Shown: positions 10,856 through 48,818 of the stretch, piece by piece
Layout: every line of letters starts with the position of its first letter
How positions within the stretch are numbered: position 1 is the stretch's first letter
The notes under the pieces: model-generated
What the model saw: only the letters and a program-made list of their open reading frames with translations
Databases searched by the model: none
What the model was told of the DNA's origin: nothing
Source: Pseudoxanthomonas kaohsiungensis
Lineage (GTDB): Bacteria > Pseudomonadota > Gammaproteobacteria > Xanthomonadales > Xanthomonadaceae
Assembly: GCF_010211765.1 (NCBI RefSeq)
Contig: NZ_PDWO01000019.1
Location: 1 to 51,658, forward strand
Direction: 5' to 3'
Length of the DNA: 51,658 nt
Program-made: the position numbers and the translations under genes

Positions 10856-11355
10856 GGGAGCAGGGACCGGTAACGCTCGAGGTCGTTGGTCGAGAAGCAG
10901 CAGAACACCACCTCGCGTACCCGCCGTGCCGGGAATGCGGCGACCGTGTGCACCGCCAGCGGCGCGGCCAGGTCGGCCGGATAGCCGTACACGCCGGTGC
11001 TGATCGAAGGAAACGCCACGCTCGTGCAGCCGGCTTCCTCGGCCAGCGCCAGGCTGTTGCGGTAGCAGCCGGCAAGCAGTTCCGGCTCGCCATCGCCGCC
11101 GCCGCGCCAGATCGGGCCGACGGCGTGGATCACATGACGCGCCGGCAGGCGGAAGCCGGGCGTGATCCGCGCCTGCCCGGCCGGGCATCCACCCAGCGTC
11201 CGGCAGGCTCGGAGCAGTTGCGGACCGGCGGCCCGATGGATCGCGCCGTCCACCCCGCCGCCGCCCAGCAGCGACGCGTTGGCCGCATTGACGATCGCAT
11301 CCACCGCCAGGGTGGTGATGTCGGCCTGCAACGCGCGCAACCGCAAACCGGCCAT
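10852..11355 (-). CDS. Macrodomain protein, O-acetyl-ADP-ribose deacetylase-like
   Basis: A stand-alone macrodomain of 167 residues, close to YmdB and other MacroD-type hydrolases that remove ADP-ribose or deacetylate O-acetyl-ADP-ribose. Visible motifs are [20 protein letters not shown] (the Asn and the glycine loop that bind ADP-ribose), [25 protein letters not shown], and [10 protein letters not shown], which forms the second phosphate loop. It sits 10 bp after the small ribbon-helix-helix gene upstream and is almost certainly co-transcribed with it. Its stop codon is supplied by an intergenic repeat. No DarT-like toxin partner is visible. Confidence 0.92.
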
Positions 11356-11365
11356 GGCGGCTGCG

Positions 11366-11593
11366 TCAGAAGCCCTTGCCGGCCGGCACTTCCTTGAGCG
11401 CGGCGATGGCCTCGGCGAGGGCGTCGACCTCGCTCTCCTCGAAGCCGCCCCGGACTTCGTGCTCGGAGGCGAACAGCCCCTGCTCGAGCAGCCGCAGGAT
11501 GGTCTCGTGCTGGGTCCAGCCGCGCGCCACCGAGACCCGGCGGATGCGGTCGGCGAGGATCGGATCGATGTCGCGCAGCAGCAGGTCGGTCAT
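11366..11593 (-). CDS. Small ribbon-helix-helix-like protein
   Basis: 75 residues from ATG at 11593 ([11 protein letters not shown]). A longer open frame to 11641 lacks support. The N-terminal ~45 residues have a beta strand, helix, helix pattern ([24 protein letters not shown], then [11 protein letters not shown]) like FitA/Arc-type DNA-binding antitoxins. The tail is acidic ([15 protein letters not shown]). It precedes the macrodomain gene by 10 bp. The pairing suggests it may regulate its own operon, which is inference. No PIN-domain toxin follows. Confidence 0.75.
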
Positions 11594-11672
11594 GCAGCCC
11601 CCTGTTCGGCCCCTTGCCCGCCAAGACTGCCACGAATCCAACGCGGGCTGGAGCCGGCGCCGGCCGCCCTGT

Positions 11673-13013
11673 TCATCCGGATGCCGGGGCTGGCGCGGCC
11701 TCGCGGATGCGCGGCCACAGCCACGCCAGCAGCAGCAGGGTCGGCACCACGGTCATGGCGCTGAGGGTGAAGAAGGTGGCGTAGGAGCTGGCCTCGACCA
11801 GGTAGCCGGACAGCCCGCCGGCGAACTTGCCGGGCAGGTTGGCCAGCGACACCATCAGCGCGAACTGGGTGGCGGTGAAGTTGCGGTCGGTCAGCGACGA
11901 CATGAACGCCACCAGGGTGGTCCCGGCGAACCCCTGGGCGACGTTGTCGGCGGTGATCGCCGCGTAGAACGCCCAGATCTGCGATGGATACTGCGCCATC
12001 AGCAGGAAGGCGAGGTTCGACAGCGCCACGCCCAGCGCGGCCACCAGCAGCATCCGCCGGAAGCCGAACGCGGCCACGCACACCCCGCCCAGGAACGCGC
12101 CGCCGATGCCGGCCCAGATCCCGTACAGCTTCGACACCGTGGCGATGTCGGCCTTCGTATAGCCCGAATCCAGGTAGAACGGCCCGGCCATCACCCCGAT
12201 CACCTGGTCGGGGAACTTGAACAGGCCCACGAACAGCAGCAGGGCGATGCCGAAGGTCACGCCATTGTTGCGGAAGAAGCTGGCGAACGGCTGCCAGAAC
12301 GCGCCGATGAAATCGATCCGGCGCTGCACGCTCAGCTCCGGGGTAGCCGGCTCGCGGCTGAGCAGGGTCGCCAGCAGCGGCAACGCCATCAGCGCGGCCA
12401 TGCCCAGGTACGCCACCTTCCAGCCGGCGAAGTCGGCCAGGTAGAGCGCACCGGCGCCGCCCAGGATCAGGCCGATGCGGTAGCCCAGGGTGTAGGTCGC
12501 CGCCAGCGCCGCCTGCGCGTCGGCGGGCGCGATCTCGATGCGGTAGGCATCGACCACCGAATCCTGGGTGGCGCCGGCGAAGGAGCAGAACAGCACCCAG
12601 CCCACCAGCGGGGCCACCCCCAGTTCCGGGCGGGTGAACGCCAGCGCCGCCAGGCCCAGGCCCACGCCCAGCTGCGCCCCGACCAGCCACGAACGGCGGC
12701 GGCCGAGGAATCCGAGCGGCCTGAACACGTAGCGGTCCAGCAACGGCGCCCACAGGAACTTGAACAGGTAGAAGAAGCTGGCCAGGCTGATCAGGCCGAT
12801 GTCGTGCAGCTCCAGGCCCGAATCGCGCAGGCGCGTGGACAGCGTCATCGAGGCGATCGGCAGGAACGGCAACCCGCAGCCGAAACCCAGGACCGCCATC
12901 GTCAGCGCCGAGGGCGTTCCGAACGCACGGCGGATGCCGGCCCAGCCCTTGTACGCCGGCTTCGTCGGCGGCGCCGGGCTCGCCTGCGCCGGCTCCGGGA
13001 CGCCCGCGCTCAC
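11673..13013 (-). CDS. ampG: AmpG-family muropeptide permease (MFS)
   Basis: Inner-membrane transporter expected to import anhydro-muropeptides (GlcNAc-anhydroMurNAc peptides) for recycling. The product is 446 residues with about 12 hydrophobic segments. The segment GFGCGLPFLPIASMTLSTRL, followed by IGLISLASFFYLFKFLWAPLLDRY, is the AmpG signature region. GATQDSVVDAYRIE in the middle is also typical. ATG 13013 overlaps the stop of xth by four bases (ATGA), so the two are translationally coupled. It is somewhat shorter than the E. coli protein (about 490), lacking part of the C-terminal helices. anmK 3 kb away acts on its substrate after cleavage. Confidence 0.9.
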   Translation of the reverse strand: MSAGVPEPAQASPAPPTKPAYKGWAGIRRAFGTPSALTMAVLGFGCGLPFLPIASMTLSTRLRDSGLELHDIGLISLASFFYLFKFLWAPLLDRYVFRPLGFLGRRRSWLVGAQLGVGLGLAALAFTRPELGVAPLVGWVLFCSFAGATQDSVVDAYRIEIAPADAQAALAATYTLGYRIGLILGGAGALYLADFAGWKVAYLGMAALMALPLLATLLSREPATPELSVQRRIDFIGAFWQPFASFFRNNGVTFGIALLLFVGLFKFPDQVIGVMAGPFYLDSGYTKADIATVSKLYGIWAGIGGAFLGGVCVAAFGFRRMLLVAALGVALSNLAFLLMAQYPSQIWAFYAAITADNVAQGFAGTTLVAFMSSLTDRNFTATQFALMVSLANLPGKFAGGLSGYLVEASSYATFFTLSAMTVVPTLLLLAWLWPRIREAAPAPASG

Positions 13014-37748: not shown

Positions 37749-39839
37749 ATGCGCCACAGCAAACTGTTCGTCGCCTCCAGCCTCGTCCTTGCCCTGGCCG
37801 CCTGCGGCGGCAAGCAGGACGACGCGACCACCGCCACGCCGGCAACCGCCGCGCCCGAGGCACCCAAGGAAGTGGAACTGATCGCGCGCGATGCGCTGTT
37901 CGGCAATCCCGAGCGCGCCGGCGTGCAGATCAGCCCCGACGGCAAGTACCTGAGCTGGATCGCGCCCGTCGACGGCGTGATGAACGTCTGGGTCGCACCG
38001 TCCAGCGATCCGTCGGCCGGACGCGCGGTGACCGACGACAAGGCGCGCGGCATCCGCAACTACTTCTGGTCCTACCGCCCCGACACGCTGCTGTACCTGC
38101 GCGACAACGGCGGCGACGAGGATTTCCACCTGTACGCAGTGGACCTGGCCAGCAACCAGAGCCGCGACCTGACCCCGTTCGAGAAGACCACCGCGCAGGT
38201 CGTCGGCGTCAGCCCGACCCAGCCCGACAGCATCCTGGTCGGCATGAACGACCGCGACGCCAAGTGGCACGACCTGTACCGCGTCGACCTGGCCAGCGGC
38301 GAGCGCACCCTGGTGGAGAAGAACACCCAGGAGATCGCCGGCTACATCGCCGACGGCGCGTACAACCTGCGCTTCGCCCAGCGCTCGCGCCCGGACGGCG
38401 GCATGGACATCCTCAAGCGCGCCGGCAGCGCCTGGGAGAAGGCTGACGACGTGCCGTTCGAGGACGTGCTCACCACGAATGTCCTGGGCCTGACCCACGA
38501 CGGCAAGACCCTGTACCTGGCCGACTCGCGCAACCGCAACACCTCGGCGGTGTACGCGATCGACAGCGGCACCGGCGAGCGCAGGCTGCTGGCCGAGGAC
38601 GCGCGCGCCGACATCGGCGGCGGCCTGTCCGATCCGCGCACCGGCGAGCTGCAGGCCGTGTCGGTCGATTACCTGCGCGAGGAATGGAAGCCGCTGGGCG
38701 ACGCGCTCGCCGCCGACCTGAAGGCGCTGGAGGGCATCGGCCCGGGCGAGGCGGGCGTCAACGCGCGCACGCTCGACGACAGGACCTGGATCGTCACCTA
38801 CTCGGCCGCCGAATCGCCGGTGGTCTACTACCGCTACGACCGCACCCCCGGCGCCGAGGGCAAGCTGACCAAGCTGTTCTCCGCGCGCCCGGCGCTGGAC
38901 GGCAAGCCGCTGGCGCCGATGTGGCCGCTGGAGATCAAGTCGCGCGACGGCCTGACCCTGCCCAGCTACCTCACCCTGCCGGTGCAGGCCGACGCCGACG
39001 GCGACGGCAAGGCCGACGCGCCGGTGCCGATGGTGCTGCTGGTCCACGGCGGGCCGTGGGCGCGCGACGACTATGGCTACAGCAGCTACGACCAGTGGCT
39101 GGCCAACCGCGGCTACGCGGTGCTGTCGGTCAACTACCGTGGCTCCACCGGCTTCGGCAAGGAGTTCACCAACGCCGGCGACGGCGAGTGGGGTCGGAAG
39201 ATGCACGACGACCTGATCGACGCGGTGCAGTGGGCCGTCGGCCAGGGCATCACCACCGCAGACAAGGTCGCGATCATGGGCGGCAGCTACGGCGGCTACG
39301 CCACTCTGGCCGGCCTGACCTTCACCCCCGACACCTTCGCCTGCGGCGTGGACATCGTCGGCCCGTCCAACCTCAACACGCTGCTGGCGACCGTGCCACC
39401 CTACTGGGCCAGCTTCTACGAGCAGCTGGCCAGGCGCATGGGCGACCCGCGCACCGAGGAAGGCAGGAAGTGGCTGACCGAGCGCTCGCCACTGACCCAC
39501 GCCGACAAGATCAGCAAGCCGCTGCTGATCGGCCAGGGCGCCAACGACCCACGCGTGAAGCAGGCCGAGAGCGACCAGATCGTCGAGGCGATGAAGGCCA
39601 AGAACATCCCGGTCACCTACGTGCTGTTTCCCGACGAGGGCCACGGCTTCGCCCGCCCGGAGAACAACAAGGCCTTCAACGCGATCACCGAGAACTTCCT
39701 GGCCAAGTGCCTGGGCGGCCGCGCCCAGCCGATCGGCGAGGACCTCAAGGGCTCCAGCGTCACCGTGCCCACCGGCGCCGACGGCGTGGAAGGGCTGAGC
39801 GCGGCGCTGCAGGCGCATACGCAGGACGTGCGCAAGTAA
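37749..39839 (+). CDS. S9 family prolyl oligopeptidase-like lipoprotein
   Basis: 696 residues with a lipoprotein signal (LVLALAACGG, lipid Cys near residue 19), so it is anchored in the envelope. A beta-propeller (~45-400) is followed by an alpha/beta-hydrolase from about 420. The catalytic triad is Ser513 in GGSYGGYA, Asp600 in GANDPRV and His632 in DEGHGF. HGGPWARDDYGY shapes the oxyanion region. DADGDGKAD near 418 looks like an acidic calcium-binding-like insert. Probably an aminoacyl- or dipeptidyl-peptidase; the exact specificity is not clear from sequence. Convergent with the SagB-like gene. Confidence 0.92.
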   Translation: MRHSKLFVASSLVLALAACGGKQDDATTATPATAAPEAPKEVELIARDALFGNPERAGVQISPDGKYLSWIAPVDGVMNVWVAPSSDPSAGRAVTDDKARGIRNYFWSYRPDTLLYLRDNGGDEDFHLYAVDLASNQSRDLTPFEKTTAQVVGVSPTQPDSILVGMNDRDAKWHDLYRVDLASGERTLVEKNTQEIAGYIADGAYNLRFAQRSRPDGGMDILKRAGSAWEKADDVPFEDVLTTNVLGLTHDGKTLYLADSRNRNTSAVYAIDSGTGERRLLAEDARADIGGGLSDPRTGELQAVSVDYLREEWKPLGDALAADLKALEGIGPGEAGVNARTLDDRTWIVTYSAAESPVVYYRYDRTPGAEGKLTKLFSARPALDGKPLAPMWPLEIKSRDGLTLPSYLTLPVQADADGDGKADAPVPMVLLVHGGPWARDDYGYSSYDQWLANRGYAVLSVNYRGSTGFGKEFTNAGDGEWGRKMHDDLIDAVQWAVGQGITTADKVAIMGGSYGGYATLAGLTFTPDTFACGVDIVGPSNLNTLLATVPPYWASFYEQLARRMGDPRTEEGRKWLTERSPLTHADKISKPLLIGQGANDPRVKQAESDQIVEAMKAKNIPVTYVLFPDEGHGFARPENNKAFNAITENFLAKCLGGRAQPIGEDLKGSSVTVPTGADGVEGLSAALQAHTQDVRK

Positions 39840-39856
39840 GTCGCTGCTACGAGAGC

Positions 39857-39877
39857 GGGCGCCGGATTCCGGCGCCC
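39857..39877. terminator. Convergent terminator hairpin
   Basis: GGGCGCCGG and CCGGCGCCC pair perfectly around ATT, between the stop codons of the S9 peptidase and the SagB-like gene. It can serve both strands. No T-run on the plus strand. Confidence 0.6.
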
Positions 39878-39896
39878 GACCACCTCCACAGGCCGG

Positions 39897-41045
39897 TCAA
39901 GTCCGCCACACGTGGCCGGCGGGATCGAACTCGGCGTTGTTCATCAGATCGCCGCGCCAGCCGAAGCCGCCCAACGCCATCACGCCCTCCTCGAGCGGAT
40001 CCAGGCCCAGGGCTTCCTCGATGTCGGCTTCGTTTATCGCGCAGGTGACGAACGCGCCCAGTCCGAGATCGGTAGCCGCCAGATACAGCGTCTGCGACAG
40101 GTGGCCCACGTCCATGGTGACCGCCCGGTAGGCCTTCGGGTGACGCCGGTACTTCCAGAAGCAGCGCCCGAAGCGCGTTGCCATGGCCACCATGACCGGG
40201 GCGTTGGCGAACCAGTACTGGCCGGCCACCGTGCGCAAGGCCAGCTCCTCCAGCGAGTCCTCCGGCGCCGGCATCGGCTCGAGTGCGTGCTCGATCGCAT
40301 GGTAGTGATACAGCCCCGGCGCCAGCCCCTCGACGTTCTGCACGATCAGGTAGGCCTCGGTGGGGTGCAGCCCACCGCCCGACGGACTGCCCTTCTTCAG
40401 GAATACCGTGTCGTCCTCTACCTGCCAGATCTCCTGCGCGGAGAATACCCGCTGCATCATTGCCCCGAGGACTTCGGCGGACAGGGGACGCGATGCGAAG
40501 TTGCGGCACGTGGCGCGGCGCTTCAGGAGTTCATCGAATCCGGCTCCTGCGGCGCGCGGCAGTGGCACCCGATCGTCCGGGGAGGCGCGCGCGACGACAG
40601 CGGGAGGTGGGCTGCCAAGATTCGAGCGCAAGCCCTCCGCGGTGGCCAGGCCCGCAGCCTCGGTGGCAGCCGCCGCATCGCAACCGCGCCAGCGGCTGGC
40701 CCGGTGCAACATGGCCGCCGGTGGCCACCAATGGCTGTCGCGCAGCTTCGCCTCGCCGCCGCCCGCCCCGTCTTCGGCAAGCACCAGGCCGCACTCCAGC
40801 AGCTTCGGCAGTGCGGTCGACGCCGCTCCGAGGATCCCGGGCTCGACCCACTCACGGGGCGACAGGCGTCCAAGGCACTCGACCTCGGCGATGTCCAGCA
40901 CCACCTCTCCGGGAAGATGTGGCGCATGCGCGATCCACTCCTGGCGTCGGACCGCGCCGCCACCGCCAGCCAGGAGCGAACCCAGGTCGAACTCCGCGTG
41001 TTCCCGCGGTTCGATGTATGTAACGGCGCAGCGGCGGACCCGCAT
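39897..41045 (-). CDS. SagB-like putative peptide maturation dehydrogenase
   Basis: Predicted FMN-dependent oxidase acting on a ribosomal peptide. The product is 382 residues from ATG 41045, with GGGGGAG eight bases upstream. The N-terminal ~150 residues are a family-specific part with a winged-helix-like stretch and no clear motif. The nitroreductase-type SagB/ThcOx domain starts near 180 (LKRRATCRNFASRPLSAEVLGAM), with SGGGLHPTEAYLIV, TMDVGHLSQTLYLAATDLGLGAFV and a C-terminal GGFGWR. It matches what I recall as the 'putative peptide maturation dehydrogenase' of Xanthomonadales. The usual partner, a YcaO cyclodehydratase, is absent. Divergent from the peptide gene across 85 bp. Confidence 0.85.
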   Translation of the reverse strand: MRVRRCAVTYIEPREHAEFDLGSLLAGGGGAVRRQEWIAHAPHLPGEVVLDIAEVECLGRLSPREWVEPGILGAASTALPKLLECGLVLAEDGAGGGEAKLRDSHWWPPAAMLHRASRWRGCDAAAATEAAGLATAEGLRSNLGSPPPAVVARASPDDRVPLPRAAGAGFDELLKRRATCRNFASRPLSAEVLGAMMQRVFSAQEIWQVEDDTVFLKKGSPSGGGLHPTEAYLIVQNVEGLAPGLYHYHAIEHALEPMPAPEDSLEELALRTVAGQYWFANAPVMVAMATRFGRCFWKYRRHPKAYRAVTMDVGHLSQTLYLAATDLGLGAFVTCAINEADIEEALGLDPLEEGVMALGGFGWRGDLMNNAEFDPAGHVWRT

Positions 41046-41130
41046 CCTGTCTCCCCCTTGAAAGCAAGCCCGGCCAGTATGACGATGTCGGGCCGCACAA
41101 GCCGTGCGGCGCAGCGCGAGGGGGCATTGA

Positions 41131-41445
41131 ATGAGTACCGAGCAGACCAGGCAACCGATGGATCCGGCCGTCGTCGACAAGCTTCTCGACCGGCTGTCCA
41201 GTGATGACGAATACCGGGAGCTTTTCGCCAAGGACCCGCGGGCGGCACTGGAGCAGGTCGGCCACAAGGTGCCGTCCGACGACGCGATGGCATGTGCGCG
41301 GACCGAAACACTGGCCTCGAAGGAAGAAATCGCGCAGGCCCGCAAGCTGCTCGCCGACCACCTGACCGACCAGGCCGCCATGGCCATGACCGTGATCTTC
41401 AATTTCGAAGCCGGGCGGATCAGGACCAAGCTGTCGAAGTCCTGA
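41131..41445 (+). CDS. Putative modified peptide (RiPP precursor) with nitrile-hydratase-like leader
   Basis: 104 residues from ATG 41131, preceded by GAGGGGG. Residues ~13-45 (VVDKLLDRLSSDDEYRELF, KDPRAALEQVGHKVP) have the pattern of the nitrile-hydratase alpha-like leader used by some RiPP precursors. The middle contains the only cysteine (Cys55 in AMACARTE) and a helix (EEIAQARKLLADHL). The putative core is the last ~20 residues, AAMAMTVIFNFEAGRIRTKL and then SKS, with Thr87, Thr99, Ser102 and Ser104 and no cysteine or double-Gly cleavage site. It matches what I recall as the 'putative modified peptide' family found next to SagB-like and cyclase genes. Confidence 0.82.
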   Translation: MSTEQTRQPMDPAVVDKLLDRLSSDDEYRELFAKDPRAALEQVGHKVPSDDAMACARTETLASKEEIAQARKLLADHLTDQAAMAMTVIFNFEAGRIRTKLSKS

Positions 41446-41450
41446 CTCCC

Positions 41451-41477
41451 CACCCGCGCCCGTCCCGGGCGCGGGTG
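41451..41477. terminator. Perfect 12-bp hairpin between peptide and cyclase genes
   Basis: CACCCGCGCCCG (41451-41462) pairs with CGGGCGCGGGTG (41466-41477) around TCC. It lies six bases after the peptide stop, between convergent genes, and so can act on both. Confidence 0.7.
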
Positions 41478-41495
41478 CGATTCCCGGGGTGCCGG

Positions 41496-44009
41496 CTATC
41501 TAGCGTGCCCCTGCTGCCATGTCGGCGCTGCCGGGCGCGGCACCGCTGCCATCGCATTGAGCGGAAGCAGCAACTGGGCCAGTGCCGGCTCCGCCCATGC
41601 CCTGCCCCGCCGGGCATGGAGCCATGCATCCTGCGCAGCGGCCTCGTCCGCTCGTACCCCGTCCCGGTACAGGTCGCGCATGACCAGGCGGGCCTGCACT
41701 AGTTCGCTGCCATCCAGCTGGGGAGTCAGCCGGGCGATGCCTTCCTCGACTTTCCCGTCCAGCCGGAGCTGGTTCGCGCGCGCGATCGCCAGCATCTTCT
41801 CGGCCATCGGATTACCCGACCCGGCGACCTGCGGCTCCAGCCAGTCCATCCATCGGCGCGCCAGGGCGGTCTCGCCGCTCCGCTGGGCGATATAGCTGAG
41901 GGCCGCCATCCGGAACAGGTCCTCGTGGCGCGAGACGCGCCCGGGGTCGGCCAGCGCGGCTGCCAGCAGCCGCTCGGTCGTTTCCAGTTCCGATCTCGGA
42001 ATGCTCCGCCCGGCTGCCGAAAGCACGGCCAGATGGGCCACCTGGAAATGCCTGGGGAAGGGGTCGGGCAGGTTCCGCGCCTCGTCGCGCACCATGGAGG
42101 ACAGCTGGACCGCCTGGCCCACATCCCCGTCTTCGAGCGCCATGGTGGCAAGCAGCCGTTGCGCCAGCAGCCACATCACCTTGCCTGACTCGGGCCCCAC
42201 CTGGGCCAGCAGCTTCCTGGCTTCGTCGCGTCGCCCCAGCAACATCAAGGACTCCGCCCGGGTGCCCATCGAGGACAGCGCTGCCCCGGGGCCCGCGTCA
42301 TCAAGCGCCTTGAGTGCTTCCTCGGGCTGCCCCAGGGCGTTGTGGGCACGGGCGACGTGGGCCAGCGTCGTCGCCCTGCGCGGAGCCTGCGGCACGGTGG
42401 CCGCCCAGGCGTGTCGAAGCGCTTCTTCGAAGCGGCTGTCCACGAGCAGGTACCAGGAGGCATTGGACTGCGCCGCGAAGTCGTCCGGATACATCTTCGC
42501 CAGGGCGAGCCATTGCGCCAGCGAATCGCCGCGCGGCGAGACCTCCGCCTCCCACACATCCACGAACAGCTGGTCGCGCGGCATGAGCTGGTCGCGCACC
42601 TTCTTCGCATCCTGCACGTGGAGCACGGCCGCCTGCTGTTCACTCCTCGCCCAGGCGATGCTGGCCATGCCGAGGTGCGCGCGAGCGAACGTGGGGTCGA
42701 TCCTGATGGCGCTGGCGTAAAGCGGACCGGCCTCGTCGAACTTCATCCTCGCCATCGCCGACTCGGCCAGCGCGTAGGCACGCAGGGCGTTGAGGTCGGA
42801 GGTCGTCGCCTGCGGCAGCGGCGTCGCGCTCGCACTGATGCTTGCGATCGCCTCGCCCAGGTTGCCTCGCAGTTTTCCGGACACCTCGTCGATCGAGCCG
42901 AGTACCGAGTTCAACCCGCGCCCGGTGGCGTGATCCGCATATACGGTCGCCTGAGTGGCGGGATCGACCAGTTCGATGGAGAACTGCAGCCTGTCGTCGA
43001 CCTCGCTGACCGTCGGAATGATGACGGCGCGGGCTCCGTCGCGCAGTGCCACCTGGGAAGCGAGGTTGCGGTCCAGCACCGCCTTGTCCGGGTCCAGGCG
43101 CATCTGCTGCAGCGTCTGCTGAACCTTGAGCTCGCTCAGGACATTCACGTAACGCGACTGGCCGATGCTGATCCGGAACGCCTGCTCCAGAGAATCGTCC
43201 AGTACCGTCTGGCCGGTGAGATTGCGCAGGTCGCCCACCACCACCCAGTCGCGCTCGGAGAAGGCGATCGCCGGCTCCGGGCGGGTCATGAACCAGCCGC
43301 CGACGACCAGGCCGACGACCACCACCACCTCGGCGGCGATCGCCACCGGGCGCCGCCACACCGGCATCTCGCGCCGCGCCTTGGCGTCGCCGCGCGGCGC
43401 GCGCAGCGGCGCCAGGCCGGACTCGCCGACCTCGTGCACTTCCTGCACCTCGGGCACGCCCTTGAACAGCCAGCGGCCGTGGCTGCGCCATTGCAGCTCG
43501 TTGCCACGCTCGCCCAGCTCGCGCACCGAGCGCCGCACCAGCGGCTCGACCACCGACGACAGCAGGATCTGGCCGGGCCGGGCCAGCTGCATCAGCCGCG
43601 CGGTGAACGGCTTGGCCAGGCCTTCGATCTCGACCGGCTTGGCCCCGGCGTTCACCGCCTCCTCGCTGTTGCGCCAGATCAGCACCTCGCCCACGTGCAG
43701 GCCGGCGCGCGCCAGCAGCGGGTCGGTGCGGTGGGCGTTGCCCAGCGCTTCCAGGCCGCGGCGGTAGTCCAGGGCGAAACCGAGCCCGTCCAGCGGGCGC
43801 TCGAACAGCAGCAACAGGCCATCGGAGCGGTCGATCAGGCGGCCGCGCCAGCGCTGCTGCAGCTCCAGCACCAGCCGGTCATGGTCGCGGAACAGGGCCG
43901 CGGCCGGGCCGTCGCCGAGCTTCTCGACCAGGACGGTCGAGTCGCAGAGGTCGGTCAGCAGCAGGGTCCGCAGTTGCGGCGCCTGGCTGTCGTGCGGCAT
44001 GCCGTCCAT
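41496..44009 (-). CDS. Class III nucleotidyl cyclase, membrane segment and helical repeats (putative peptide modification system cyclase)
   Basis: 837 residues from ATG 44009, with GAGG nine bases upstream. The N-terminal class III cyclase domain covers about 12-190: metal Asp20 in LLLTDLCDST, Asp63 in DRSDGLLLLF, and GLHVGEVLIW in the substrate region. One membrane segment lies at about 220-240 (AIAAEVVVVVGLVVGGWFM). A TolB/FlgO-like region follows (VVVGDLRNLTGQTVLDDSLEQAF...VLSELKVQQTLQQMRL). The rest is a long TPR-like helical array (ARAHLGMASIAWARSEQQAA and further repeats). It resembles the guanylate cyclase XC_0250 of X. campestris, from memory. It starts ten bases after the cNMP/GGDEF gene, so the two are co-transcribed. 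Confidence 0.85.
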   Translation of the reverse strand: MDGMPHDSQAPQLRTLLLTDLCDSTVLVEKLGDGPAAALFRDHDRLVLELQQRWRGRLIDRSDGLLLLFERPLDGLGFALDYRRGLEALGNAHRTDPLLARAGLHVGEVLIWRNSEEAVNAGAKPVEIEGLAKPFTARLMQLARPGQILLSSVVEPLVRRSVRELGERGNELQWRSHGRWLFKGVPEVQEVHEVGESGLAPLRAPRGDAKARREMPVWRRPVAIAAEVVVVVGLVVGGWFMTRPEPAIAFSERDWVVVGDLRNLTGQTVLDDSLEQAFRISIGQSRYVNVLSELKVQQTLQQMRLDPDKAVLDRNLASQVALRDGARAVIIPTVSEVDDRLQFSIELVDPATQATVYADHATGRGLNSVLGSIDEVSGKLRGNLGEAIASISASATPLPQATTSDLNALRAYALAESAMARMKFDEAGPLYASAIRIDPTFARAHLGMASIAWARSEQQAAVLHVQDAKKVRDQLMPRDQLFVDVWEAEVSPRGDSLAQWLALAKMYPDDFAAQSNASWYLLVDSRFEEALRHAWAATVPQAPRRATTLAHVARAHNALGQPEEALKALDDAGPGAALSSMGTRAESLMLLGRRDEARKLLAQVGPESGKVMWLLAQRLLATMALEDGDVGQAVQLSSMVRDEARNLPDPFPRHFQVAHLAVLSAAGRSIPRSELETTERLLAAALADPGRVSRHEDLFRMAALSYIAQRSGETALARRWMDWLEPQVAGSGNPMAEKMLAIARANQLRLDGKVEEGIARLTPQLDGSELVQARLVMRDLYRDGVRADEAAAQDAWLHARRGRAWAEPALAQLLLPLNAMAAVPRPAAPTWQQGHAR

Positions 44010-44019
44010 CGTCGCAGCC

Positions 44020-45060
44020 TCATCCGCCCGGGAGCGGCGGCAGGCCGTCGATCCAGAACGCGCGGTTGCCGCCCAGGCGCTTGGACTCGTACAGGGCCGC
44101 ATCGGCGCGCGCGTACCAGTCGTTCCAGTCCTGCTCCGGTTCGACCAGGCAGGCGCCCACGCTCACCGGGCAGATGGTCGGCACCGCCTGCTGCAGCAGC
44201 AGCAGGTTGCGGGTGGTGGCCACCACGAACTCGGCGTAGCGCATCACGTCTTCGCGCTTCTGCGCCGAGACCAGCAGGCAGAATTCGTCGCCGCCCAGAC
44301 GGCAGGGCACGTCGTCCGGGCCGGCGACCGAGCGCAGGATGCCGGCGATGTTCTGCAGCACGCGGTCGCCGATCAGGTGGCCATGGTCGTCGTTGACCTG
44401 CTTGAAGCGGTCGCAGTCCACCAGCACCAGGCCCATGGCCTCCTTCATCCCCAGCCGGCGGCATTCCTGCAGGTGCAGGGTCAGGCCGCGGCGGTTGTAC
44501 AGGCCGGTGAGCTCGTCGGTGCGGATCAGCTCCTCGGTCTGGTTGAGCTGGTGGGTGGTGGCGTAGAGGTTGTCCAGCGCCGTCTCCAGGTCCTGGTTGC
44601 GGCGGCGCAGCTGGCGGATCAGGCTCTGCTCGTTGAGCACCACCCGAGTAATGGAGCGGCGCAGGAACTGCGCTACCAGGTGCGGATCGCGTGCCACAAG
44701 CTGCTGGAACTCATCCTCCCCCAGCTCGACCAGGGCGCCGTCGCTGGCGGCGACCGCGTCGGCGCTACGGGTGTGCTCGCCGATCAGCAGGCCCAGCTCG
44801 CCGAAGAATTCCTGCGGCCCCAGCTGCTTGGTGGCCAGGTCGTTGCCGAAGTCCAGCTCGACCCGGCCATGGGAGATCACGTACATGACCTCGCCGGTGT
44901 CGCCGCGGCGGAACAGGCGCTCGCCGGCGCGCATCGGCCGTTCGCGACCGACGGCCGCGAACAGGTTGAACTCGCACGACGACAGGGCGGCGTTTCCACC
45001 ACCGCTGGCTTCCTGGTCGTTCCTGTCCCGGACGCTGCGCGTCACGCCGTCGCTCGACAT
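44020..45060 (-). CDS. cNMP-binding / GGDEF protein (cyclic nucleotide-responsive diguanylate cyclase)
   Basis: 346 residues from ATG 45060 (MSSDGVTRSV), soluble. The CRP-like cNMP-binding domain covers about 30-140 (RAGERLFRRGDTGEVMYVISHGRVEL, EFFGELGLLIGEHTRSADAVA). A coiled linker (RRNQDLETALDNLYATTHQL) leads to the GGDEF domain (~185-340), with an intact active site GGDEF at 256-260. The inhibitory RxxD position reads GPDD, so the I-site is lost and feedback inhibition is not expected. Order and neighbour fit XC_0249 of X. campestris, where cGMP binding raises c-di-GMP synthesis; orthology is inferred. Confidence 0.88.
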   Translation of the reverse strand: MSSDGVTRSVRDRNDQEASGGGNAALSSCEFNLFAAVGRERPMRAGERLFRRGDTGEVMYVISHGRVELDFGNDLATKQLGPQEFFGELGLLIGEHTRSADAVAASDGALVELGEDEFQQLVARDPHLVAQFLRRSITRVVLNEQSLIRQLRRRNQDLETALDNLYATTHQLNQTEELIRTDELTGLYNRRGLTLHLQECRRLGMKEAMGLVLVDCDRFKQVNDDHGHLIGDRVLQNIAGILRSVAGPDDVPCRLGGDEFCLLVSAQKREDVMRYAEFVVATTRNLLLLQQAVPTICPVSVGACLVEPEQDWNDWYARADAALYESKRLGGNRAFWIDGLPPLPGG

Positions 45061-45668: not shown

Positions 45669-46961
45669 TCAGGCCGCCGCGCGGTCGTGGAACTGCTCTT
45701 CCTCGGTCGAGCCCTTCAGCGCGGTGGTCGAGGACTGGCCCTGCTGGATCGCCTGGGTCACCTGGTCGAAGTAGCCGGTGCCGACCTCGCGCTGGTGCTT
45801 GACCGCGGTGAAGCCCTTCTCGGCGGCGGCGAACTCGGCCTCCTGCAGCTCCACGAATGCGCTCATCTGCCGGCGGGCGTAGCCGTGGGCCAGGTTGAAC
45901 ATCGAGTAGTTCAGCGCATGGAAGCCGGCCAGGGTGATGAACTGGAACTTGTAGCCGTAGCTGGCGATCTCCTTCTGGAATTTCGCGATGGTGGCGTCGT
46001 CCAGGTTCTTCTTCCAGTTGAACGAGGGCGAGCAGTTGTAGGCCAGCAGCTTGCCCGGGTACTTCGCGTGGATCGCCTCGGCGAACCTGCGCGCGAACTC
46101 CAGGTCCGGCTTGCCGGTCTCGCACCAGACCAGGTCGGCGTAAGGCGCGTAGGCCAGGCCACGGCTGATCGACTGCTCCAGGCCGTTGCGCACCTTGTAG
46201 AAGCCCTCGACCGTGCGCTCGCCGGTGCAGAACGGCTTGTCGTTGTCGTCGACGTCGGAGGTCAGCAGGTCGGCGGCCTCCGCGTCGGTGCGCGCGACCA
46301 GCAGCGTCGGCACGCCCATCACGTCGGCGGCCAGGCGCGCGGCGTTGAGCTTCTCCACCGCCTCGCGGGTCGGCACCAGCACCTTGCCGCCCATGTGCCC
46401 GCACTTCTTCACCGAGGCCAGCTGGTCCTCGAAGTGCACGCCCGCCGCGCCGGCCTCGATCATCGCCTTCATCAGCTCGAACGCGTTGAGCACGCCGCCG
46501 AAGCCGGCTTCGGCGTCGGCCACGATCGGCTGCAGGAAGTCGATGCTGTCGTCGCCCTCGGCATGGTGCAGCTGGTCGGCCCGCAGCAGCGCGTTGTTGA
46601 TCCGGCGCACCACCGCCGGCACCGAGTCGGCCGGGTACAGCGACTGGTCCGGATACATCTGCCCGGCCAGGTTGGCGTCGGCGGCGACCTGCCAGCCGGA
46701 CAGGTAGATCGCGTTCAAACCCGCCTTGACCTGCTGCATGGCCTGGTTGCCGGTCAGCGCACCGAGCGCGTTGACGAAATCCTTCTCGTGCAGGTAGCGC
46801 CACAGCTTCTCCGCGCCGATCTTCGCGATCGAATGCTCGACCGGGATCGTGCCGCGCAACCGGACCACGTCGGCGGCGGTGTAGTTGCGGGTGATGCCGG
46901 CCCAGCGCGGGTCGGTGTTCCATTCGTGCTGGATCTGTTCGGCGGTCTTCAGCGTGGTCAT
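45669..46961 (-). CDS. aceA: Isocitrate lyase
   Basis: Cleaves isocitrate to glyoxylate and succinate, the first step of the glyoxylate shunt. The product is 430 residues. The catalytic signature [10 protein letters not shown] is intact with its Cys. The N-terminus ([19 protein letters not shown]), [21 protein letters not shown] and [10 protein letters not shown] are family-typical. It lies downstream of aceB on the same strand, separated by 162 bp with a palindrome, so both may be read from the aceB promoter or aceA may have its own. Confidence 0.97.

Positions 46962-47123: not shown

Positions 47124-48818
<1,695 letters not shown>

Follow-up and report, generated by a model that had tools for sequence, protein, structure and literature searches.

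What does a set of peptide modification genes do beside a relay of cyclic nucleotide second messengers? This question is raised by four adjacent genes at positions 39897-45060 of a 51,658-nucleotide stretch of DNA from Pseudoxanthomonas kaohsiungensis (contig NZ_PDWO01000019.1), which was analysed as a whole and is called the window below. The genes encode a SagB-like dehydrogenase, a small precursor peptide, a class III nucleotidyl cyclase and a GGDEF diguanylate cyclase with a cyclic nucleotide monophosphate (cNMP)-binding domain. A sequence-only reading had placed the four genes side by side at these positions, where we found all of them, and had supposed that the tetratricopeptide repeat (TPR) array of the cyclase senses the peptide. 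Here, we describe this locus as a polymorphic cassette, whose presumed ligand, maturase and sensor part vary against a constant output and constant flanks, and show that the type of the peptide core follows the TPR region of the cyclase and not the GGDEF protein or the catalytic domain.

A variable cassette joined to a constant output

The SagB-like protein, a putative peptide maturation dehydrogenase (39897..41045, minus strand, 382 amino acids), scores 522.3 bits against TIGR04511 (SagB_rel_DH_2; cut-off 240), the precursor peptide (41131..41445, plus strand, 104 amino acids) 94.4 bits against TIGR04509 (cut-off 34), a family of NHLP-related ribosomally synthesised and post-translationally modified peptides (RiPPs), and the cyclase (41496..44009, minus strand, 837 amino acids) 996.2 bits against TIGR04510 (mod_pep_cyc, peptide modification system cyclase; cut-off 400). 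The assignment of these three proteins to named families was thus confirmed by profile search against NCBIfam, where all three exceed the curated cut-offs and carry the label of a putative 'peptide modification system'. The GGDEF protein (44020..45060, minus strand, 346 amino acids) exceeds the cut-offs of Pfam PF00027 and PF00990. An NHLP-like leader and a LASKEE motif precede the variable C-terminal core of the peptide; the presumed core in the window is AMAMTVIFNFEAGRIRTKLSKS (41377..41442, plus strand), in which the core motif [FL][EDN] takes the form FE.

The cyclase comprises a catalytic domain (residues 12-200; 43410..43976, minus strand), which is the conserved output part with a mean pairwise identity of 0.69, a single transmembrane helix (residues 222-242; 43284..43346, minus strand) with the N-terminus predicted inside, a predicted periplasmic domain (residues 245-395; 42825..43277, minus strand) and a TPR array (residues 396-820; 41550..42824, minus strand), the variable and presumed receptor part, with a match to PF14559 over cut-off. 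Residues 245-395 are taken by us to be TolB-like, given a weak match to PF13036 below cut-off and their position past the helix. Mean identity falls from the value of the catalytic domain to 0.22-0.38 in the TPR and C-terminal part. Among 186 homologues, 171 contain one hydrophobic segment, nine none and six two. The mean net charge is +3.7 before and -1.1 after the helix, with a bias in the same direction in all 180 scored cyclases (six gappy rows were dropped). Because of this charge bias around a single helix, the catalytic domain is predicted to lie inside, and the TolB-like and TPR parts in the periplasm.

Exchange of the variable part was surveyed in 113 distinct loci, which yielded 238 pairs, not independent of each other, with a GGDEF identity of at least 85%. 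A pair was counted as a strict swap when GGDEF protein and catalytic domain were at least 85% identical, the TPR identity was below 45% and the peptide had changed. Such swaps were found in 121 of the 238 close pairs and involve 48 of the 113 loci in seven clades; in three of them the window is one member, paired with L071, L146 or L155. The catalytic identity was 0.7 or higher in each of the 238 close pairs, and the TPR identity was below 0.5 in 145 of them. All 121 change points map at or past the end of the catalytic domain, between cyclase residues 197 and 419: at 197 (5 swaps), 225-229 (44), 261-268 (21), 297-301 (6), 343-364 (21), 388 (2) and 412-419 (22). SagB usually changed along with them, its identity being below 0.5 in 74 swaps, 0.5-0.7 in 40 and at least 0.7 in seven.

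The same pattern is visible in the DNA. We compared seven locus pairs of our own choosing by blastn, and five of them show 80-95% identity in the DNA to the left and to the right of the block. The locus of X. dyei (L160) and that of Xanthomonas sp. Leaf148 (L204) are 95% identical up to nucleotide ~826 of the cyclase gene, then cannot be aligned for 3.5 kb except for a 214-bp patch (69%), and are again 95% identical over 5 kb. The pairs L160/L103, L095/L033, L093/L047 and window/L055 swap likewise, with right flanks of 80-92% identity, and in L093/L047 the similarity resumes within SagB. In the window, the cassette that differs from L055 spans 39840..42953 between flanks of 85-92% identity on both sides and includes one 511-bp patch at 68% inside SagB. 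The pair L148/L140 retains two more similar patches and has no right flank because the contig ends, and the window and L132, which are of the same type, are similar throughout.

Loci that lack one of the genes or carry more than one copy were excluded from the congruence analysis; of the 136 single-copy loci that remained, 86 were kept as non-redundant. The boundary between leader and core was set by us at the LASKEE motif plus 22 residues. In the 86 loci, core distance correlates most strongly with the TPR array (r = 0.67), followed by SagB (0.49), GGDEF (0.30), the catalytic domain (0.25) and the TolB-like domain (0.18). Given the four other regions, the partial correlation between core and TPR is 0.55 (permutation p 0.001), compared with 0.18 for SagB, -0.06 for the catalytic domain and -0.24 for the TolB-like domain. 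A sliding-window partial correlation, controlled for catalytic-domain and GGDEF distance, stays between -0.16 and 0.15 across the GGDEF protein, the catalytic domain, the membrane helix and the TolB-like domain, rises at about cyclase residue 400, peaks at 0.57 at residues 486-546 and is 0.52 at the end. When pairs were grouped into eight strata matched for GGDEF and catalytic identity, the rank correlation between core and TPR ranged from 0.30 to 0.54; the TPR array is the highest non-peptide region or tied with SagB in seven strata, and SagB is higher in one (0.32 versus 0.30).

Clustering of core distances gave five core types with at least three loci each, so that 83 of the 86 loci could be scored. 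On trees made with FastTree only, from regions that differ in length and rate, the core type changes four times on the TPR tree (the minimum being four), six times on the tree of either SagB part, 11 times on the TolB-like tree and 20 times on the tree of GGDEF protein plus catalytic domain; shuffled labels give ~42 changes. The TPR array requires the fewest changes at all five cut levels. Four of the five types span more than one genus group, and t3 (four loci) is confined to one. Core types made by hand point in the same direction, with 18 of the 86 loci left as 'other'; they were defined after viewing the cores, and we therefore rely on the clustered types. Taken together, congruent variation and cassette swapping lend comparative support to the supposition that the TPR array may sense the peptide.

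Module, maturation and second messenger relay

In a sample of 149 genomes of the family Xanthomonadaceae, the cyclase and the peptide were each found over cut-off in 93 genomes. The SagB-like protein was matched at E 1e-20 in 93 genomes, with 91 of these matches exceeding the cut-off, and at E 1e-40 the GGDEF protein was likewise matched in 93. The sequence-only reading had let its case depend on whether the peptide and SagB-like genes accompany the cyclase elsewhere, and they do: peptide and cyclase occur together in 91 of the 93 peptide-bearing genomes, and the remaining two (G011 and G120) carry the cyclase in pieces. Two cyclase genomes lack the peptide, G054 and G126, the latter with its cyclase on a 4-kb contig. 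Peptide, cyclase and SagB coincide in 90 genomes and all four genes in 84; the GGDEF match is missing from seven cyclase genomes, in two of which (G126 and G141) the contig is short, and lies distant from the cyclase in G022 and G067. In an order-level sample of 250 genomes, 57 had a match to TIGR04510 above its cut-off, of which 14 lie outside Xanthomonadaceae, and in a phylum-level sample TIGR04511 did so in eight of 398 genomes, all within this order.

The exact gene order GGDEF> cyclase> <peptide SagB> was observed in 61 of 101 loci, that is, 100 fetched regions, five of which had been picked for holding only the GGDEF gene, and the window. Eight more contain two peptides and six a SagB gene that is turned. 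A second set, the best 80 of 280 relatives, which overlaps in species with the fetched one, shows the exact order in 69 of its 80 named loci. Because co-occurrence and gene order recur, a chance neighbourhood was rejected, and the four genes form one module. The locus is not one operon. GGDEF and cyclase genes lie on the same strand (minus), 10 bases apart, and the peptide gene on the opposite strand is convergent with the cyclase gene and divergent from the SagB-like gene, from which it is separated by 85 bases. A perfect 12-bp GC-rich inverted repeat, read from the sequence between the convergent peptide and cyclase genes (41451..41477, not stranded), is a possible two-way terminator.

Several loci depart from this layout. 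A second full-length cyclase follows SagB in L188 (9815-12229) and L197 (7028-9442), with no peptide gene of its own in the fetched stretch. In L199 a second cyclase copy by SagB (11058-12890) has kept the membrane helix and the ectodomain and lost the catalytic domain, which makes it a possible decoy receptor; partial second copies similar to it are present in G233 and G323. The loci of G022 (L114) and G067 (L112) are complex, the two genomes having nine and five peptide matches, respectively, and several SagB-like genes, and G040 (L122) carries five tandem peptide genes, several of them near-identical. G060 (L127), which belongs to the genus group of the window, has a GGDEF gene and neither nearby nor genome-wide over cut-off a cyclase, peptide or SagB gene. 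A record titled Bacillus subtilis SK7B5 (L162) bears a locus of the Xanthomonadaceae type, which makes mislabelling or contamination of the record probable.

The peptide gene shows the substitution pattern of a coding sequence: of eight Xanthomonas relatives entered, seven of equal length were compared, and the substitutions summed over their 21 pairs amount to 254, 185 and 786 at codon positions 1, 2 and 3. The SagB-like protein further matches TIGR03605 (126 bits) and PF00881. Its residues Lys298-Tyr299 align with McbC residues 201-202, presumably the catalytic pair of SagB-type dehydrogenases, and the Lys-Tyr pair is present in 112 of 113 loci, the remaining one showing a gap; judged from the alignment, the active-site pair is intact. 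A search for YcaO at E 1e-10 gave no match in the genome of the window and matches in only nine of the 149 family genomes, and YcaO is absent from 84 of the 93 genomes with the SagB-like gene, including that of the window. Since there is no YcaO, an azole RiPP pathway (thiazole/oxazole-modified microcin, TOMM) was rejected. In Pseudomonas, the nitroreductase domain of PflD is described to form Z-dehydrophenylalanine beside Asp on an NHLP precursor in a YcaO-free pathway (PMC12636437, preprint). Our best guess for the locus studied here is a desaturation at a core Phe or Leu before Glu, Asp or Asn, which would yield a dehydro-amino acid. The motif [FLYMW][EDN], picked post hoc, occurs in 79 of 95 distinct cores, compared with a mean of 32 and a maximum of 46 in shuffles, and is missing from the other 16.

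The two remaining proteins had been likened to the relay of Xanthomonas campestris, in which XC_0250 synthesises cGMP and cGMP stimulates XC_0249, and the loss of which lowers biofilm formation and virulence (PMC3770947). The sequences agree with this likeness. The Results of that study name F73, E90, L91, H98, V142, N145 and E146 as cGMP contacts, and the equivalents of all seven are present in the GGDEF protein of the window; among 171 aligned rows, E146 is conserved in every one and N145 in 153 (the window being counted twice). In the GGDEF protein of L127, the otherwise solitary gene of G060, Ser stands at the F73 position. The structure code in the paper is 4KG1, which is not among the structure matches listed for the GGDEF protein of the window; its cNMP domain matches structure 5h5o (E 9.8e-39). 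We infer that 5h5o is the XC_0249 domain, because all seven published residue numbers fit at one offset. X. campestris was not identified among the loci, close Xanthomonas relatives being present: GGDEF proteins of the locus from Xanthomonas are at most 97% identical to 5h5o, and none of the 35 genomes of the Xanthomonas genus group contains a perfect match (29 matched, best 97%). The GGDEF motif is intact in all 113 loci, including the window.

As for the cyclase, the XC_0250 residues D41, D71, L73, A150, L157 and A161 stand at their published numbers in four of seven Xanthomonas cyclases tested. Five of these six mutant positions are matched in the window (D33, D63, L65, A143 and L150), and Val154 replaces A161, a position occupied by Ala in 172 and by Val in two of the 180 aligned proteins that have a residue there. 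Residues D20, D33 and D63 of the window cyclase are near invariant among homologues, and D20 and D63 presumably correspond to the class III metal ligands by convention. The cyclase and the GGDEF protein are thus apparent orthologues of XC_0250 and XC_0249, respectively.

The main text of PMC3770947 contains no word starting with peptide or operon, and no input to the relay is named in its available sections; a 2019 review calls the function of the TPR domain uncharacterised (PMC8042644). In the open-licence literature we found no publication that joins the peptide half and the cyclase relay, in line with the earlier view that this link had not been described, and no literature on the gene numbers XC_0251 and XC_0252 and three XCC numbers.

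A prolyl-oligopeptidase-like peptidase (37749-39839), with matches far below cut-off to the Dpp5 and lasso peptide isopeptidase models, adjoins the SagB-like gene outside the variable block. An isocitrate lyase gene (45669-46961, 817 bits) flanks the GGDEF gene, and the next open reading frame (47124-48818) we take to resemble malate synthase. A tRNA scan and Rfam at gathering thresholds gave no match in the window.

Proposed peptide sensing and competing explanations

We consider it fairly probable that the locus is a polymorphic modified-peptide signal system, sensed by a receptor guanylate cyclase that feeds cGMP into c-di-GMP. A receptor guanylate cyclase is proposed because ligand, maturase and ectodomain swap as a unit against a constant output, as in agr and ComQXP. 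In this scheme, the SagB-like flavoenzyme, without its usual cyclodehydratase partner in the genome, would desaturate the precursor peptide, and the matured core would reach the periplasm, where the TPR array of the single-pass receptor would bind it. Upon binding, the cytosolic domain would synthesise cGMP at a changed level; cGMP would then occupy the cNMP domain of its GGDEF partner, which would make c-di-GMP. With ligand, receptor ectodomain and usually the maturase exchanged as one cassette, the alleles would give rise to separate signalling types at constant output. The chemistry of the modification, the export, the binding and the sign of the response are our suppositions in this scheme. 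A more far-reaching view has in our estimate an even chance of being right: Xanthomonadales would have a peptide-hormone receptor guanylate cyclase, the XC_0250 relay would receive its missing input from an NHLP-type peptide desaturated by SagB, and at least five ligand and receptor types, four of them across genus groups and spread by exchange of the cassette, would act as signalling groups that control c-di-GMP and biofilm. Under the proposed scheme the second cyclases of L188, L197 and L199 and the cyclase of G054 would be eavesdropping or decoy receptors, or else counter-examples.

Several observations weigh against the proposed signalling. There is no exporter or known leader protease among the four genes, and a C39 peptidase was found at E 1e-8 in 65 of the 93 peptide genomes and in none of the other 28, so that a C39 exporter as a fixed component is unsupported; the genome of the window has two C39 matches, both away from the locus. 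The GGDEF partner accompanies the cyclase in most genomes and is not universal: G033, G036, G040, G073 and G100 have cyclase, peptide and SagB and no GGDEF match at E 1e-40. Conversely, G052, G060, G069, G094 and G107 have the GGDEF protein without the cyclase, and G054 (L094) keeps cyclase and GGDEF protein on a contig of 2.3 Mb in which neither peptide nor SagB was matched. The window cyclase itself has Val at the position of XC_0250 Ala161, the change of which to Ser is reported to have abolished activity, and in a Xanthomonas mutant the cyclase domain alone restored biofilm formation, for which reason the ectodomain is dispensable for basal output (PMC3770947). At the other cut levels of the core types, the TPR tree requires 6, 8, 12 and 15 changes against minima of 4, 6, 8 and 9. 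SagB residues 78-138 reach a partial r of 0.53 with the core, compared with 0.2-0.3 for the SagB catalytic part. Among pairs with a GGDEF identity of at least 80% the TolB-like domain tracks the core as well (rank r 0.64, versus 0.74 for the TPR array), as is expected where the cassette begins before the TolB-like domain.

Above all, TPR array, peptide and SagB are adjacent in the locus, and therefore their congruence could arise from linkage alone. The main rival is physical linkage with no binding involved: exchange would move the 3′-end of the cyclase gene along with peptide and SagB only because they are neighbours, and the TPR array would bind something else. The contiguity of the variable parts speaks for it, as does the tracking of the core by SagB, with six changes for the core types, and by the TolB-like domain among close pairs. 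However, all 121 change points, from seven clades, fall within residues 197-419, albeit in swaps selected for a catalytic identity of 85%, and the catalytic identity remains at 0.7 or above in all 238 close pairs irrespective of swapping. Moreover, the partial correlation peaks (0.57) some 0.8-1 kb away from the peptide gene, in residues 486-546, and is not confined to the adjacent end (0.52), and the TolB-like domain, though likewise linked, needs 11 changes where the TPR array needs four. We therefore regard mere hitch-hiking as unlikely.

Alternatively, the peptide could be bacteriocin-like and the ectodomain a sensor of the self-recognition or immunity type, the variation reflecting the matching of toxin and immunity. 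Pairs of toxin and immunity genes also form variable cassettes. Furthermore, Os1348, an NHLP-clan peptide with a SagB-type neighbour, is reported to contribute to the antibiotic activity of Pseudomonas, although recombinant Os1348 itself was without such activity (PMC7726476). None of the four genes resembles an exporter or a stand-alone immunity protein, and the output fused to the sensor is a regulatory messenger relay, whose loss is described to lower biofilm formation and virulence in Xanthomonas (PMC3770947). This explanation, too, seems improbable to us.

It is very unlikely that the TPR array takes part in peptide handling, as a dock or processing site for the precursor at the membrane that signals its maturation status via cGMP, the peptide being no intercellular signal: TPR arrays often serve as protein docks, and the leader also correlates with the TPR array (partial r 0.41, up to 0.50 in the last TPR window), but the core tracks the array better (0.55), the best window of the leader is the SagB N-terminus (0.54), and the predicted topology places TPR part and SagB enzyme on opposite sides of the membrane. 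An anti-phage system was rejected, since three of the proteins had no PADLOC match at E 1e-5 and the fourth was no more than weakly similar in its cNMP domain.

Comparison with known systems

If the proposed signalling holds, the locus would constitute a peptide-sensing guanylate cyclase and a pherotype-like system upstream of biofilm control in Gram-negative genera, Xanthomonas, Stenotrophomonas and Lysobacter among them. It encodes a concrete ligand candidate as well as a maturation enzyme, and its natural alleles make type specificity testable.

The cGMP signalling of Xanthomonas was described in 2013 (PMC3770947). The XC_0250/XC_0249 pair of that study resembles the present locus in its adjacent cyclase and cNMP-GGDEF genes and in the same seven named cGMP contacts; the difference lies in the peptide candidate encoded here, the words peptide and operon being absent from that main text. 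The family names of TIGR04509, TIGR04510 and TIGR04511 in NCBIfam imply that the cyclase belongs to peptide modification. We consider it more likely that the cyclase represents the receptor and output side, to which the GGDEF partner is to be added.

The pfl/pos and Os1348-Os1351 clusters of Pseudomonas are alike in having an NHLP-type precursor and a nitroreductase or SagB-type enzyme without YcaO; as described in the available parts, they contain MNIO, HEXXH and GNAT enzymes and transporters, with no mention of a cyclase relay (PMC12636437, preprint; PMC7726476). The present locus instead combines a stand-alone SagB-like enzyme with a cyclase. It thereby offers a YcaO-free SagB-like enzyme together with a candidate substrate.

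In agr and ComQXPA, the signal peptide, its maturation enzyme and the sensor part of the receptor likewise vary as one block, which is joined to a conserved output. Their receptors are histidine kinases of Gram-positive bacteria, whereas the receptor proposed here would be a Gram-negative guanylate cyclase that feeds cGMP and c-di-GMP. The natriuretic peptide receptors and other animal receptor guanylate cyclases are single-pass proteins with a ligand-binding part outside and a guanylate cyclase in the cytosol, which is the architecture we propose for the cyclase of this locus; ectodomain and ligand differ between the two, and the binding of the peptide by the TPR array is our proposal from sequence comparison.

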